From the NCBI RefSeq assembly GCF_000403135.1, contig NZ_AQPN01000043.1, positions 62,001 through 126,000 on the forward strand: a DNA stretch of 64,000 bases, given 5' to 3'. Under the pieces are notes generated by a model. It did no database searches. It was not told the origin of the DNA and worked only from the letters and a program-made list of their open reading frames with translations. Shown piece after piece: positions 3,537-9,862 of this stretch; the stretch's first letter is position 1, and every line of letters starts with the position of its first letter. Position numbers and translations under genes: made by a program. The DNA comes from Arcticibacter svalbardensis MN12-7 (lineage in GTDB: Bacteria > Bacteroidota > Bacteroidia > Sphingobacteriales > Sphingobacteriaceae).

Positions 3537-3857
3537 TTATAAAAATCCGAGCTCCAATTTGGCTTCTTCGCTCATCATCTCTCTATCCCATGGCGGATCA
3601 AATGTAATTTCTACCCTCACCTCCTTAACTCCTTCTATCACAGAAAGTCCGCGCTCCACATCCTGTAAGATCTGATCGGCAACCGGACAGCCCGGAGCAG
3701 TAAGAGTCATAATTATTTTAATGATTCCATTCGTATAGGTAATCAACTCATAGATCAGGCCCAGTTCATAGATATCCACAGGAAGTTCCGGATCAAAGAT
3801 CGTTTTAAGTCTTTCAATTACCTTATCCTGTATTCCCGCTGCATCATTTATTATCAT
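3537..3857 (-). CDS. sufT: SufT-like Fe-S assembly factor (MIP18/DUF59 family)
   Basis: This 106-aa protein is a single DUF59 (MIP18) domain: IFDPELPVDIYELGLIYEL, the conserved Cys in TLTAPGCPVADQI, and VEITFDPPWDREMMSEEA near the C-terminus. Members of this family act in late [Fe-S] cluster maturation or delivery, in the cytoplasm. It is the last gene of the suf operon, four bases after sufE, and directly before the operon terminator, which strongly supports this role over the other DUF59 proteins acting in phenylacetate degradation. No client protein can be named from the sequence. Confidence 0.88.
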   Translation of the reverse strand: MIINDAAGIQDKVIERLKTIFDPELPVDIYELGLIYELITYTNGIIKIIMTLTAPGCPVADQILQDVERGLSVIEGVKEVRVEITFDPPWDREMMSEEAKLELGFL

Positions 3858-3861
3858 TTCA

Positions 3862-4284
3862 TCAGGCTTTTAAAGAATTGTAGGCATGCGCATACAACTT
3901 AATTTGTTTCAACATGGAAAGCAATCCATTCGAACGTGTTGGTGATAGATGTTCCTGCAAACCAATCCGATCTATAAAATACACATCAGCTGCTACAATT
4001 TCAGCTGGAGTATACCCTGACAATACCTGCACTACCAGGTTAACTAACCCTTTTGAGATTATCGCATCACTGTCAGCAGTAAAAAACACCTTACCCTCTC
4101 TTATTTCCGGATAAAGCCATACTCTGGACTGACATCCCTTAATCAGATATTGATCCTGTTTATATTTATCATCAATTATAGGTAGTTCCTTAGCAGATGT
4201 GATGATATATTCGTATTTATCAATCCAGTCTGTCAGGAATTCAAACTCTTCTACAAGTTCATCCTGCTTCTCATTTATAGTCAT
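3862..4284 (-). CDS. sufE: SufE cysteine desulfuration protein
   Basis: This 140-aa SufE accepts persulfide sulfur from SufS and passes it to the SufBCD scaffold. The conserved IKGCQSRVW motif carries the acceptor cysteine, and the C-terminal GLQEHLSPTRSNGLLSML segment is typical of the family. Length matches SufE. It lies six bases after the sufS stop and four before sufT, so translation is probably coupled. No CsdE-type partner is present, which supports the SufE rather than CsdE assignment. Confidence 0.93.
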   Translation of the reverse strand: MTINEKQDELVEEFEFLTDWIDKYEYIITSAKELPIIDDKYKQDQYLIKGCQSRVWLYPEIREGKVFFTADSDAIISKGLVNLVVQVLSGYTPAEIVAADVYFIDRIGLQEHLSPTRSNGLLSMLKQIKLYAHAYNSLKA

Positions 4285-4290
4285 TAATCC

Positions 4291-5544
4291 TTAAATTAAA
4301 ATAGTTAATGCCCTTTTTAAACTAGTTATAAAGACATCTATTTCCTCTTTGGTGTTGTATACCGCAAAAGAGATCCGCAATGTGCCAGGAATCTCAAAGA
4401 AATCCATAACCGGTTGTGTACAATGATGACCGGTCCGAACGGCTATACCCATTTTATCAAGCAAAACCCCGATATCATAGGAATGAGCACCATCTACAAC
4501 CAGTGAAATAGCACCTGAACGATGTGCAGCCGTACCAATAATACGAACACCTTGAATAAAAGACAATTGCTTTAAAGCATATTGATACAATTCCCTTTCA
4601 AATCGCTCAATATTTTCCAGCCCGATTTCATTAATAAAATCAATGGCTGTATTCAACGTGATAGCCGCTTCAATATTGGGGGTGCCTGCCTCAAACTTAA
4701 AAGGCAGATCATTATATTCCGTAACTTCAAAAGTAACAGACTTAATCATATCACCTCCACCCTGATAAGGCGGAAGTTTATTGAGCCACTCTTCTTTACC
4801 GTACAGAACCCCAATCCCTGTAGGGCCATACATTTTATGTCCCGAGAAAACCAAAAAGTCACAATCCAGATCCTGAACATCCACTTTGGTATGTTGTACC
4901 GCTTGTGCTGCATCTAATAAAACAGGAATATTTTTGGCATGCGCAATCTTAATAATTTCAGCCACCGGGTTAACTGTACCCAAACTGTTCGAAACCATCG
5001 TTACCGCAACAATCTTCACATGATCATCCAACAGACGCTCAAATTCATCCATCAGCAGCTCACCAGATTCATTCATCGGAATCACCTTCAGTGTTGCTCC
5101 TCTTTTTCCGCAGATAATCTGCCAGGGAACAATATTAGAATGATGTTCCATAGCCGAAATCAACACCGTATCACCAGGATTCAAATAGGAATATCCAAAC
5201 GTATCCGCAATGAGGTTGATGCCATCCGTAGTACCCTTTGTAAAGATAACTTCATATGCATGAGGCGCATTGATAAAAGCAGCCACACTATTTCGTGTCA
5301 CTTCGTAAGCTTCAGTAGCCTCCTGACTTAAATAATGAACTCCCCTGTGGATATTACTATTTATCGTAGAATAATAAGCAGTAATAGCCTCAATAACAGC
5401 ATTAGGCTTCTGTGTAGTAGCCGCATTATCAAAGTACACCAGCGGTTTCCCGTACACAGATTGATGTAAAGCAGGAAATTGATTCCGTATCGGCTCTCCC
5501 CTATATATAAATGCAGTTTCTAGCTGATCTGTAATTGCTTCCAT
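4291..5544 (-). CDS. sufS: Cysteine desulfurase SufS
   Basis: This 417-aa PLP enzyme (class V fold, NifS group II) takes sulfur from cysteine, leaving alanine, and feeds SufE. Visible signatures are FDNAATTQKP near the N-terminus, the PLP lysine in FSGHKMYGPTGIGVLYG, and the catalytic cysteine in VRTGHHCTQPVM, with the short loop typical of group II enzymes. Its place between sufD and sufE fixes it as SufS rather than a selenocysteine lyase or IscS. Confidence 0.95.
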   Translation of the reverse strand: MEAITDQLETAFIYRGEPIRNQFPALHQSVYGKPLVYFDNAATTQKPNAVIEAITAYYSTINSNIHRGVHYLSQEATEAYEVTRNSVAAFINAPHAYEVIFTKGTTDGINLIADTFGYSYLNPGDTVLISAMEHHSNIVPWQIICGKRGATLKVIPMNESGELLMDEFERLLDDHVKIVAVTMVSNSLGTVNPVAEIIKIAHAKNIPVLLDAAQAVQHTKVDVQDLDCDFLVFSGHKMYGPTGIGVLYGKEEWLNKLPPYQGGGDMIKSVTFEVTEYNDLPFKFEAGTPNIEAAITLNTAIDFINEIGLENIERFERELYQYALKQLSFIQGVRIIGTAAHRSGAISLVVDGAHSYDIGVLLDKMGIAVRTGHHCTQPVMDFFEIPGTLRISFAVYNTKEEIDVFITSLKRALTILI

Positions 5545-5572: not shown

Positions 5573-6898
5573 CTAAGCTACTGTAAGATTCTCTGTATTC
5601 AGTTTTTTGTTCAATAAATCGGATACATAATCCTGCAGCGACTCAATTTTTATCTTTGAAATCACGTCAAATATAAACGATTGCATAATCAGCTTCCTTG
5701 CTGCCTCTTCTCCAATACCACGGGTCTGCAGATAAAACAAAGCATCCTCATTCATCTGACCTATTGTTGATCCATGTGAACATTTCACATCATCAGCAAA
5801 TATTTCCAACTGAGGTTTACTGTTTACAGTAGCCTGATCACTCAGCAAAAGATTATTATTCTGCTGAAAAGCATTGGTTTTTTGAGCATCGGGACGCACA
5901 AATACTTTACCATTAAATACAGCGTGAGAAGTATCAAGCAAAATTCCCTTATATACTTCGTTCGTATTACAATTAGGCGACTGATGATCTACCAACGTAT
6001 GATTGTCAACATGTTGGTCACCAGTCAATATATAAGCGCCTATTAAATTAGTTTCCGTACCTACATCTTTCAATTGAAAGTTAAGGTCGTTTCTTAATAA
6101 AGTAACATCGCTCAGCGCAATATTTGAATTATTCAGCACACTGTTCCTGTATTGAAAAACCTCTCTATGTTGCACAAAATAGGCATTTTCAGGAAGCGTG
6201 TTGATCATGTGCGTATTCAGGATTGCTGATTCGTGAATCTCCTGTTCGCATACATAACTCACAAAAAGCGGATGTACTAATGAATCAGAATGAAAAGTTT
6301 CAATTATAGTGGCTTCACTATGTTTTTCAGCAATTACCAGCATCCTGTAAGGCACAAATTCAGCGATATCATTCACTGTAAATACGTGGGATACATGAAT
6401 TGGTTTTTCAACAATCGCATGAGCAGCTATTTCCAAAACACTGACTTCTGTAAAGAAAGCCGTGTTTAATGCCAGCATCGGGGCATCATCTTCAGTTGCC
6501 AGCGTAGAGATCTTATCCTCGAACCTGATTTCAGCCATGGTTGCCTGGGTATCATAAAAGGTAATGCCTTCAGGCAAAACATCCGAAAGTTCCGGAGCAA
6601 ACCGACCATTCACCAATACCAAATGGACCGCGTCTAAAGAGTGAATCCGGTTGGTGTTAATTAAAGAATGATCATGTTCAATCATTAATTGCAGCTCATC
6701 TTTCAGCGCAGCAGCTAAGCTGGTAAACTTCCACTCTTCATACTTGCGGGTAGGGAAACCTAACTCCTTAAATATAGAGAAAGCTTCATTCCGTTTTTCT
6801 GTCAAATTTGCTGATTCAATATATGTTAAAGCAGCCTGCTTTTTATCAAAGCTGTCTACTAAGTATTTATAAAAATTATTATACAGTCCCTGTTTCAT
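5573..6898 (-). CDS. sufD: Fe-S cluster scaffold subunit SufD
   Basis: This 441-aa SufD forms the SufBC2D scaffold on which [Fe-S] clusters are built. The C-terminal half has the SufBD beta-helix core, including [53 protein letters not shown] and the closing [16 protein letters not shown]. The start overlaps the sufC stop by 20 bases; no later Met fits the family N-terminus, so the overlap is accepted and implies coupled translation. Confidence 0.94.
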
Positions 6899-7637
6899 GT
6901 TGTGTTATCCAGTCATACCCTTTTTCCTCAAGTTCCTGCGCTAATTCCTTAGTGCCCGATTTAATAATGCGTCCATCGTATAAAATATGAACAAAATCAG
7001 GAATAATGTAATCAAGCAAACGCTGGTAATGAGTAATAATAACAAAAGCATTATTTTCAGTACGCAATTTATTTACACCACTTGCCACGATCCGTAGTGC
7101 GTCAATATCCAATCCTGAATCTGTTTCATCCAGGATAGCCAGTTTAGGATCAAGCATGGCTAACTGCAATATTTCATTCCTTTTCTTTTCACCACCGGAG
7201 AATCCTTCATTCAAAGAGCGGTTCACCAAAGATGATTTCAATTCTACAAGCTCTTGTTTATCTTTTAAAAGCTTCAGAAACTCTTTAGAAGTCAATTCAG
7301 GTAATCCTCTATGGGAACGAATTTCAGTAATCGCTGTTTTAAGAAAGTTGATATTAGATACCCCGGGTATTTCTACCGGATACTGGAAAGCCAAAAACAA
7401 TCCTTCTCTTGCTCTTTCTTCAGGAGCCATATCCAAAAGATCCTTTCCATCCAGAAAAGCTGTTCCTTCAGTCACTTCATATTCGGGCTTTCCAGCTAAA
7501 ACAGAAGCCAAAGTACTTTTACCTGATCCATTAGGACCCATTATAGCGTGAATTTCTCCCGCATTTACCTTAAGATCAATCCCCTTCAGGATTTGTTTTC
7601 CTTCAATCGATGAATGAAGATTCGTTATATTAAGCAT
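6879..7637 (-). CDS. sufC: Fe-S assembly ATPase SufC
   Basis: This ABC-type ATPase (252 aa with the chosen start) powers the SufBCD scaffold. Walker A is GPNGSGKST, the signature is [13 protein letters not shown], and Walker B is [12 protein letters not shown], followed by the H-loop IITHY. The frame is open upstream to 7694, but that longer start would overlap sufB by 32 bases and add a 19-residue tail not found in SufC. The Met at 7637 ([10 protein letters not shown]) matches the family start and leaves a 25-base gap after sufB. Confidence 0.94.
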
Positions 7638-7662: not shown

Positions 7663-9105
7663 CTATCCAACACTTCCGTCAAGTGAGATAGCAAGTAATT
7701 TTTGTGCCTCTACAGCAAATTCCATCGGAAGTTTATTCAGCACCTCCCTGGCGTAACCATTCACGATCAAAGCTACTGCTTTCTCATTATCAATTCCACG
7801 TTGGTTCAGATAGAAAATCTGATCTTCAGCAATCTTGGAAGTAGTAGCCTCATGTTCCACAATGGAGCTGCTGTTTTTCCCTTCAATATAAGGGAAAGTA
7901 TGCGCACCGCATTTATCACCGATCAGCAGGGAATCGCACTGCGTAAAGTTACGTGAATTTGTTGCGCCCGCATTAATGGACACTAAACCACGGTAACTGT
8001 TATGACTATGTCCGGCTGAAATTCCTTTGGAAATGATCCGGCTCCGGGTATTCTTGCCCAAGTGGATCATCTTCGTTCCTGTATCTGCAATCTGCCTGTT
8101 GCGGGTTAGCGCTACAGAATAGAATTCTCCTGAAGAATGATCACCCTTCAAAATCACACTTGGATATTTCCAGGTAATGGCAGAGCCTGTTTCTACCTGA
8201 GTCCAGGAAATTTTTGAATTTCTTCCTTTAGCAATTGCCCGTTTGGTTACGAAGTTATATACCCCTCCCTTACCATCTTTATCACCGGGATACCAGTTTT
8301 GTACGGTTGAATATTTTATCTCTGCATCATCAAGTGCAATAAGTTCTACTACCGCAGCATGTAACTGATTTTCATCACGCCTTGGTGCTGTACATCCTTC
8401 CAGGTAACTCACATAACTGCCTTCATCAGCAATTAGCAAGGTACGCTCGAACTGACCACTGTTCATGGCGTTGATACGGAAATAAGTAGAAAGTTCCATC
8501 GGACAACGTACACCCTTAGGGATGTAAGCAAATGATCCGTCGGAAAACACAGCGGCATTAAGTGCTGCAAACAAATTATCGGTAGCAGGAACTACGGTTC
8601 CTAAGTATTTCTTAACCAGTTCGGGATGATTTTGAACCGCTTCACCGAAGGAACAAAAGATTACCCCTATTTCGGCCAGTTTGCCTTTAAATGAGGTACC
8701 TACGGAAACACTGTCGAAAACGACATCAACGGCTACCCCGGAAAGCATCTTCTGCTCATCAAGAGAGATTCCCAGTTTAGCGAAAGTTTCTAGCAACTCA
8801 GGATCAACTTCATCCAGACTTGCCAAAGCCTTTTTCTTAGGCGCAGCATAATAGGAAATATCCTGAAAATTCAAATCAGGAAAATTAAAGTTCTGCCAGT
8901 CTGGTGTCTCCATTGTCAAAAAGTGCTTTAACGCTTTCAGACGATATTCCAATAACCAAACCGGTTCATTCTTCTTAGCTGAAATGAATCGCACCGTATC
9001 TTCATTCAAACCCGGAGGTAAAATCTCCGTATCTATATTAGTAGAAAACCCGTACTCGTATTCACTATTCGCAAGTTCTTCTAATAACTCTTGGTCTTTA
9101 CTCAT
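7663..9105 (-). CDS. sufB: Fe-S cluster scaffold subunit SufB
   Basis: This 480-aa protein is the first gene of the suf operon and the main cluster-building subunit. Family motifs include [20 protein letters not shown], the Cys in [40 protein letters not shown], the [19 protein letters not shown] stretch near the C-terminus, and [16 protein letters not shown]. The length matches bacterial SufB. It is transcribed away from the sufR-like gene across a 133-base region that contains a palindrome and a likely promoter. Confidence 0.96.
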
Positions 9106-9172
9106 CGTTCAAATTAATTAAACCTATATTTTATTTATCAGGAAATCGCAACCTGCATTCCATTTTAAAAAT

Positions 9173-9206
9173 TTTGTCTTTATTAATTACAAAGTTACTA
9201 CTTTTG
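9173..9206 (+). promoter_or_regulatory. Putative sufR promoter (-33/-7)
   Basis: TTTG at 9173-9176 and TACTTTTG at 9199-9206 match the Bacteroidota consensus, with a 22-base spacer (slightly long). The -7 box lies inside the palindrome, and transcription would start about 25 bases before the sufR ATG at 9239, so autorepression is likely. Confidence 0.5.
9190..9197 (-). promoter_or_regulatory. Putative -7 element of the suf operon promoter
   Basis: On the minus strand TAACTTTG matches the Bacteroidota -7 consensus TAnnTTTG, 85 bases upstream of the sufB start. A good -33 TTTG at the standard spacing is not evident. Its first three bases overlap the left arm of the 9195-9220 palindrome, which would suit repression by SufR. 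Confidence 0.5.
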
Positions 9207-9220
9207 CATTAAACAAGTAA
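9195..9220. promoter_or_regulatory. Putative SufR operator palindrome
   Basis: TTACTACTTT and AAACAAGTAA form an inverted repeat with 8 of 10 matching positions around a 6-base centre. It sits between sufB and sufR and overlaps both putative -7 boxes. SufR proteins elsewhere bind inverted repeats between these genes; the exact sequence here is not the cyanobacterial CAAC-N6-GTTG site, so the assignment rests on position and symmetry. Confidence 0.5.
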
Positions 9221-9238
9221 AAACTTGGAAAAATAATT

Positions 9239-9862
9239 ATGCGACCAAACAGGTTCTTACAGCTTCTTAAAACGAGAGGGCCTCTTAGTGCCAAAACTAT
9301 TTCCGTTGAATTAGGCATGACGGGCGAAGGTGCACGTCAGCAACTAATCAAACTGACAGAAGAGGGACTCATAAAAGCTACCTCCATTTCTAACGGTGTA
9401 GGAAGACCTATGCAAATATATGAACTTACCGAACATGGCAATACGTATTTTCCAAACAACCATGCGGAACTCAGTGTAGAACTGCTTAATGCCATTAAAG
9501 ATGAGCTTGGTGAGGAGGCCCTAGGATTGGTACTAATTACCCGTGAAAAACAGGCCGTTAAGCGTTACATGGAGGTCTTAAAGGACTATCAGGGCCTTGA
9601 AAATATCCTTAAAAGTTATACCGCAATCCGGTGTATTGAAGGGTATATGGCTGAATGCATTAAGGAGTCTGACCACGTTTATACACTACTTGAGAACCAT
9701 TGCCCCATAGGTGCGGCTTCAAGTGCCTGCTCCGGATTTTGTCATTCAGACATGCGTATTCTTCAACAAATTTTGGGTGAAAATGTACAGATTATACAGG
9801 ACCATACAATCGCAAAAGGACAACGCGTGTGCTCATACACTATCACGAGATTGCAATATTAA
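9239..9862 (+). CDS. sufR: SufR-like [Fe-S]-sensing transcriptional regulator
   Basis: This 207-aa protein has an N-terminal winged HTH (residues about 1-65: LKTRGPLSAKTISVELGMTG, then GRPMQIYELTEHG) and a C-terminal domain with the SufR-like pattern HCPI, SACSGFC, and a final VCSYTI. In SufR these C-terminal cysteines hold an [Fe-S] cluster whose loss or oxidation derepresses the suf operon. The divergent position next to sufB and the shared operator region support this function. Four C-terminal cysteines are visible (in HCPI, SAC, FC and VC); which of them ligate the cluster cannot be told from one sequence. Confidence 0.82.
   Translation: MRPNRFLQLLKTRGPLSAKTISVELGMTGEGARQQLIKLTEEGLIKATSISNGVGRPMQIYELTEHGNTYFPNNHAELSVELLNAIKDELGEEALGLVLITREKQAVKRYMEVLKDYQGLENILKSYTAIRCIEGYMAECIKESDHVYTLLENHCPIGAASSACSGFCHSDMRILQQILGENVQIIQDHTIAKGQRVCSYTITRLQY

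Follow-up and report, generated by a model that had tools for sequence, protein, structure and literature searches.

The characterised SufR proteins are reported to be repressors of suf (PMC8593673, PMC6034842, PMC7058544), and the operator of the cyanobacterial version is CAAC-N6-GTTG (PMC8593673). The kind of switch considered here, encoded in a 64-kb stretch of Arcticibacter DNA (the window), is already known. The locus resembles the cyanobacterial SufR/sufBCDS system, as in Synechocystis (sll0088), in the divergent arrangement of sufR and sufB, in the 14-bp geometry of the operator and in the Cys-rich C-terminal domain of the regulator. It differs from the Synechocystis system in base 4 of each half-site, the operator being CAAC-N6-GTTG there and CAAG-N6-CTTG here, and in displaying Bacteroidota-type -7/-33 promoters with a single clear site. 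Further, unlike cyanobacterial SufR, the Arcticibacter protein lacks the third Cys ligand and scores below the cut-off of the SufR_cyano profile, in a comparison that rests on this profile and on published patterns. The mycobacterial SufR, Rv1460, is likewise suf-linked and presents a comparable set of three functional cysteines (C203-x12-C216-x27-C244, against C155-x12-C168-x29-C198 here), but its gene opens the suf operon instead of diverging from it. Another point of comparison is the soxS promoter of E. coli, which serves both directions within little space and has an Fe-S regulator, SoxR, bound between its -10 and -35 elements; relatives of the window's regulator face sod and RND efflux genes. 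SoxR itself belongs to the MerR family and is an unrelated protein.

In the literature searched, which covers a minority of subscription papers, neither a Bacteroidota SufR switch with this operator nor a change of partner between suf, sod and efflux genes was found. The same literature joins SufR with Bacteroidetes only in a memorial article, and with Bacteroidota or Flavobacterium nowhere.

The regulator and its gene neighborhood

The host genome is placed in the Arcticibacter group of the Sphingobacteriaceae, and the nearest named relative is Arcticibacter eurypsychrophilus, whose regulator is 90% identical. The suf operon runs along the minus strand in the order sufB, sufC, sufD, sufS, sufE-like and SufT-like, and the sufR-like gene diverges from sufB across an intergenic region of 133 bp (9106-9238; Table 1).

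Table 1. Genes, promoter elements and candidate sites of the suf/sufR locus (positions within the window)
Feature	Position	Strand	Remarks
SUF-associated assembly protein, SufT/DUF59-like	3537-3857	-	TIGR02945, 130.3 bits, under the cut-off of 143.4
sufE-like	3862-4284	-	PRK09296, 104 bits, under the cut-off of 160
sufS, cysteine desulfurase	4291-5544	-	TIGR01979 above cut-off
sufD	5573-6898	-	TIGR01981 above cut-off
sufC, ATP-binding subunit	6879-7637	-	named from sequence; ORF between sufB and sufD; likely ATG at 7637
sufB	7663-9105	-	start codon at 9105; NF008773/TIGR01980 above cut-off
-7 box of the sufB promoter, TAACTTTG	9190-9197	-	fits TAnnTTTG at -12 to -5; predicted +1 ~9185
Palindrome of the initial annotation	9195-9220		8/10 arms, chance-level; spacer indel; judged not to be the operator
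-7 box of the sufR promoter, TACTTTTG	9199-9206	+	fits TAnnTTTG; in 6/6 genus members; predicted +1 ~9211
Extended conserved stretch, ATTAAACAAGTAAAAACTTGGAAAAA	9208-9233		surrounds the proposed operator core
Proposed SufR operator core, CAAG-TAAAAA-CTTG	9214-9227		perfect CAAGT-N4-ACTTG; CAAGTAAAAACTTG
SufR-like regulator gene	9239-9862	+	207 aa; ATG at 9239; matches TIGR02702 SufR_cyano

The predicted regulator matches the SufR_cyano profile (TIGR02702) over positions 6-208 of 208, i.e., with full-length similarity, at 80.4 bits (E=1.5e-22), below the curated cut-off of 178.8 bits, and it lies outside the cyanobacterial SufR equivalog in the strict sense. Of the features of SufR in the broad sense, linkage to suf and an operator of the CAAC-N6-GTTG type are both found here, the latter by sequence, whereas binding of a [4Fe-4S] cluster and repression of suf are predicted; we infer that the regulator works like SufR. 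Its predicted structure (pLDDT 81.5) comprises an N-terminal winged HTH and a separate C-terminal domain. The latter is rich in cysteines, with C155, C164, C168 and C198 being invariant across 11 diverse homologues. When set beside the cyanobacterial C-x12-C-x13-C-x14-C pattern, C155-x12-C168 and C198 are present, the third ligand is absent, and C164 represents an extra invariant cysteine. In sequence comparisons with the PDB, the winged HTH alone matches regulators. A comparison of folds with Foldseek added TRAPP/Bet3 and PoxR sensor-domain matches, all of them weak and indecisive; the modelled C-terminal domain (residues 138-204) displays a weak likeness to the TRAPP/Bet3 and PoxR sensor (V4R-like) fold.

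The predicted two-way promoter and its candidate operator

Promoters of Bacteroidota are marked by a -7 consensus, TAnnTTTG, placed at -12 to -5 (PMC9723704). Two boxes fitting this consensus lie back to back in the intergenic region (CAAAGTTA / TACTTTTG, 9190-9206), one on each strand, just as the initial annotation had reported. CAAANNTA is conserved in suf-linked loci, and the CAAAnnTAnTAnnTTTG arrangement occurs only twice in the whole genome. The predicted starts are 26 bp apart, with predicted leaders of 28 nt for sufR and 80 nt for sufB. No TTTG occupies the ideal -33 position of the sufB promoter; the TTG of the candidate operator (see below) is found 16 bp from the sufB -7 box, or 17 bp in some relatives.

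The string TTACTACTTT-TGCATT-AAACAAGTAA, which was originally put forward as the palindromic operator overlapping both promoters, is indeed present at 9195-9220 between sufB and the sufR-like gene, and its letters are kept within the genus. However, only 8 of its 10 arm positions pair, arm positions 6 and 7 being unpaired, and a repeat that is equally good or better (10-bp arms, at least eight matches, spacer of 0-12) arises in 94.3% of dinucleotide-preserving shuffles of 9106-9238. Further, its spacer is 6 bp long in three members of the genus and 7 bp long in the other three, a change that would rotate the half-sites by ~36 degrees relative to each other. Comparison with the sufR-suf regions of relatives, the check proposed along with the palindrome, indicated that it is absent outside the genus: among the loci fetched, the exact string has no match beyond the genus members with the 6-bp spacer, and across most of the second family in which the locus was traced, its left part gives way to TTACGACATT or a like sequence. 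The string is better described as a composite of two halves, the right one of the overlapping -7 boxes and the left one of the neighboring CAAG-N6-CTTG palindrome, which between them account for its left and right arms. On account of its imperfect arms, their frequency in shuffles, the variable spacer and the lack of an exact match outside the genus, it was discarded, and the chance that it is itself the operator appears negligible.

The perfect palindrome CAAGTAAAAACTTG at 9214-9227, to the right of the two -7 boxes, occurs once in the 64-kb window against an expectation of 0.02, and shuffling the intergenic region 1000 times yielded no match to it. It is kept in all six genus members, one of which (L002) has a changed arm base (CAAGTAAATCCTTG). 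In these six genomes, the conserved block extends from CAAAGTTACTACTTTTG through TTAAACAAGTAAA..CTTGG, and the remaining intergenic DNA diverges. CAAG-N6-CTTG is also kept, amid diverging flanks, in eight of the nine divergent sufR/suf loci of the second family (L123, L149, L150, L154-L157 and L160), where it takes the form CAAG-N6-CTTGGAAAAT and follows an A/T-rich, TAAAA-like arm just past the sufR -7 box; in the suf-linked relative L152, the site is degraded. The remaining zero-mismatch matches in the host genome fall inside coding regions and none in promoters, counts at up to two mismatches there equal those of the control, and no copy was found at the sod genes of the genus. As no other zero-mismatch copy was found in a promoter or at a sod gene, the suf/sufR region looks like the dedicated target in the host genome.

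The conserved block coincides with the beginning of the predicted sufR transcript, and the right half of the second-family sites holds an in-frame TTG that could be a start; both observations would fit a reading in which the block is merely the sufR core promoter and leader, and the palindrome has no regulator. Against this, other lineages carry perfect copies 100-200 bp away from sufR, at the partner promoter, and an operator base covaries with the recognition helix of the regulator (see below), leaving such a reading very unlikely. The in-frame TTG, seen in all eight second-family loci listed above, is a possible start codon of the regulator; read in this way, cTTGGAAAAT would encode Met-Glu-Asn, which may explain the conservation of GGAAAAT in these loci.

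Counted from the predicted starts, the operator core occupies +4 to +17 on the sufR side and -29 to -42 on the sufB side, so that a single dimer could act on both promoters. The earlier suggestion of one dimer serving both genes from a shared site is thereby upheld in principle, but with the site moved from 9195-9220 to 9214-9227. The suf -7 box is separated from the operator core by 24-29 bp in suf loci, and the same range is seen in efflux and many sod loci; hence, the placement of the operator also appears to follow the partner promoter.

The -7 boxes themselves raise the question of a second site, since AAGT-N4-ACTT occurs at both places in the genus: a weak site 1, AAAG-N6-CTTT (9191-9204), could accompany the strong site 2 (9214-9227) at a distance of 23 bp, in the manner of the high- and low-affinity sites used by Synechocystis SufR (PMC6034842). 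The above-noted rarity of the back-to-back arrangement is in keeping with this. However, site 1 is fully accounted for by the two -7 boxes, its palindromy is gone in most of the second family even as the suf -7 box remains, and the centre-to-centre distance is either 23 or 24 bp within the genus. As the -7 boxes explain 9191-9204, site 1 was reduced to a weak rival, and a two-operator arrangement is improbable.

Relatives, partner genes and the recognition helix

The sufR-like genes are patchily distributed, being found in 29 of 251 genomes of the family, 16 of 294 in the second family (f36) and, in a survey across the class with one query, 3 of 295; distant homologues in f74, f84 and f96 (E 1e-20 to 1e-30) constitute a separate clade and were left out of the analysis. 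The gene is divergent from sufB in all six genus members, and nine f36 loci have it divergent from suf (sufB, sufA-sufB or FMN reductase-sufA-sufB). The other partners are superoxide dismutase in 22 loci, often together with DUF2480 and FMN reductase genes, and RND efflux in 6 loci, with further loci facing other genes. A search with TAAAACAA(C/G)-N6-(G/C)TTGTTTTA recovered 12 zero-mismatch matches in 28 genomes, all adjoining a sufR-like gene, and none in the 7 genomes devoid of such a gene. Additionally, the operator was not found at the sufB promoters of genomes in which the sufR-like gene is located elsewhere.

Inspection of individual loci provides further details of these contexts. In L107-L110, L113-L117 and L146-L148, the sufR-like gene diverges from superoxide dismutase, with DUF2480 and FMN reductase genes frequently following the latter; many of these loci combine a perfect CAAC-N6-GTTG or CAAG-N6-CTTG close to the -33 region of sod with a second, imperfect palindrome at the start of the regulator gene. 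An RND efflux system (AcrB-type plus adaptor) is the divergent partner in L105, L106, L111 and L120, three of which have the operator CAAC-N6-CTTG. In L103 (-544 to -281 relative to the sufR-like gene) and L112 (-551 to -300), a divergent gene codes for a protein of 83-87 aa with no Pfam match, and the DNA between it and the regulator holds a palindrome that is perfect or nearly so (CAAG-N6-CTTG in L103). The sufR-like gene of L153 lies just upstream of sufB on the same strand, with no clear operator, and those of L125 (G777) and L127 (G781) have an internal stop codon in the frame and are possibly decaying copies.

The multiple forms of the operator can be related to the regulator via residue 34, which follows EGAR in the recognition helix and is Gln in the window's regulator. 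Its identity goes with that of base 4 in the half-site: Lys is associated with C in 28 of 28 half-sites, and Gln or Leu with G in 42 of the 47 half-sites carrying C or G, the five exceptions being hybrid CAAC-N6-CTTG sites, mostly at efflux genes; these counts are phylogenetically non-independent and reflect few independent changes, so that the Fisher p-value overstates the covariation. The tree is compatible with one or two origins of the Lys type. This covariation appears to tie the regulator protein to the operator DNA. The Lys-type relatives have the CAAC-N6-GTTG form, and as this is the published cyanobacterial SufR operator, the site here is, going by its letters, a one-base-per-half variant of the cyanobacterial one and not an unrelated element; the initial view that the two are unlike does not stand.

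More tentatively, the SufR-like clade might keep its operator code across Bacteroidota, with residue 34 reading base 4 of CAA(S)-N6-(S)TTG, and swap the genes under its control, namely suf in the genus and the second family, and, in other lineages, RND efflux or superoxide dismutase-DUF2480-FMN reductase. Such a clade would then correspond, at the level of the phylum and within one protein family, to IscR and SoxR.

Proposed control of suf and its sign

The gene at 9239-9862 probably encodes a SufR-family iron-sulfur regulator, a dimer of which would bind CAAG-N6-CTTG at 9214-9227 and from there control both its own gene and the divergent suf operon. Control of its own gene is expected because the site would span ~+4 to +17 of that gene's transcript, and control of suf because it would span ~-29 to -42, i.e., the -33 region of the sufB promoter. 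As the two -7 boxes are back to back, RNA polymerase would start from one short stretch whichever way it transcribes. If the protein behaves like cyanobacterial SufR, it would repress both genes while loaded with its cluster; a shortage of iron-sulfur clusters, or damage to them, would make it release the DNA, and suf would be expressed. In favour of this reading are the conserved palindrome, its association with the regulator gene and the covariation at residue 34; counting against it are the profile score under the SufR cut-off, the missing third cyanobacterial ligand, the lack of an ideally placed -33 TTTG at sufB, and the loci L152 and L153. The SufR-controlled suf switch envisaged by the initial annotation thus survives with respect to the SufR-type regulator divergent from suf and the closely packed promoters, but not in the operator as it was drawn.

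The same protein and operator could, alternatively, activate suf from a centre at ~-35.5 while repressing the regulator gene, like SoxR at soxS/soxR. SoxR activates in one direction and represses in the other at a bidirectional promoter (PMC12825309), the position of the operator is also used by activators that sit beside RNA polymerase, and relatives of the regulator lie opposite sod and RND efflux genes; moreover, the poor -33 element of the sufB promoter leaves room for activation of suf. However, SufR proteins that have been characterised repress suf (see above), and alignments of the sod-linked loci place the TTG of a half-site ~19-20 bp from the target -7 box, where it falls on the -33 element and binding would block the promoter. 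Activation is hence unlikely, and repression is preferred, given that it is the mode of characterised SufR proteins and that the operator and the partner's -33 region overlap.

From sequence evidence, a SufR-type switch in Bacteroidota is given a definite candidate operator that can be put to the test. The evidence further suggests that one sensor has shifted between the assembly of iron-sulfur clusters, defence against superoxide, and efflux, under a simple rule linking amino acid and base that is likewise open to testing.
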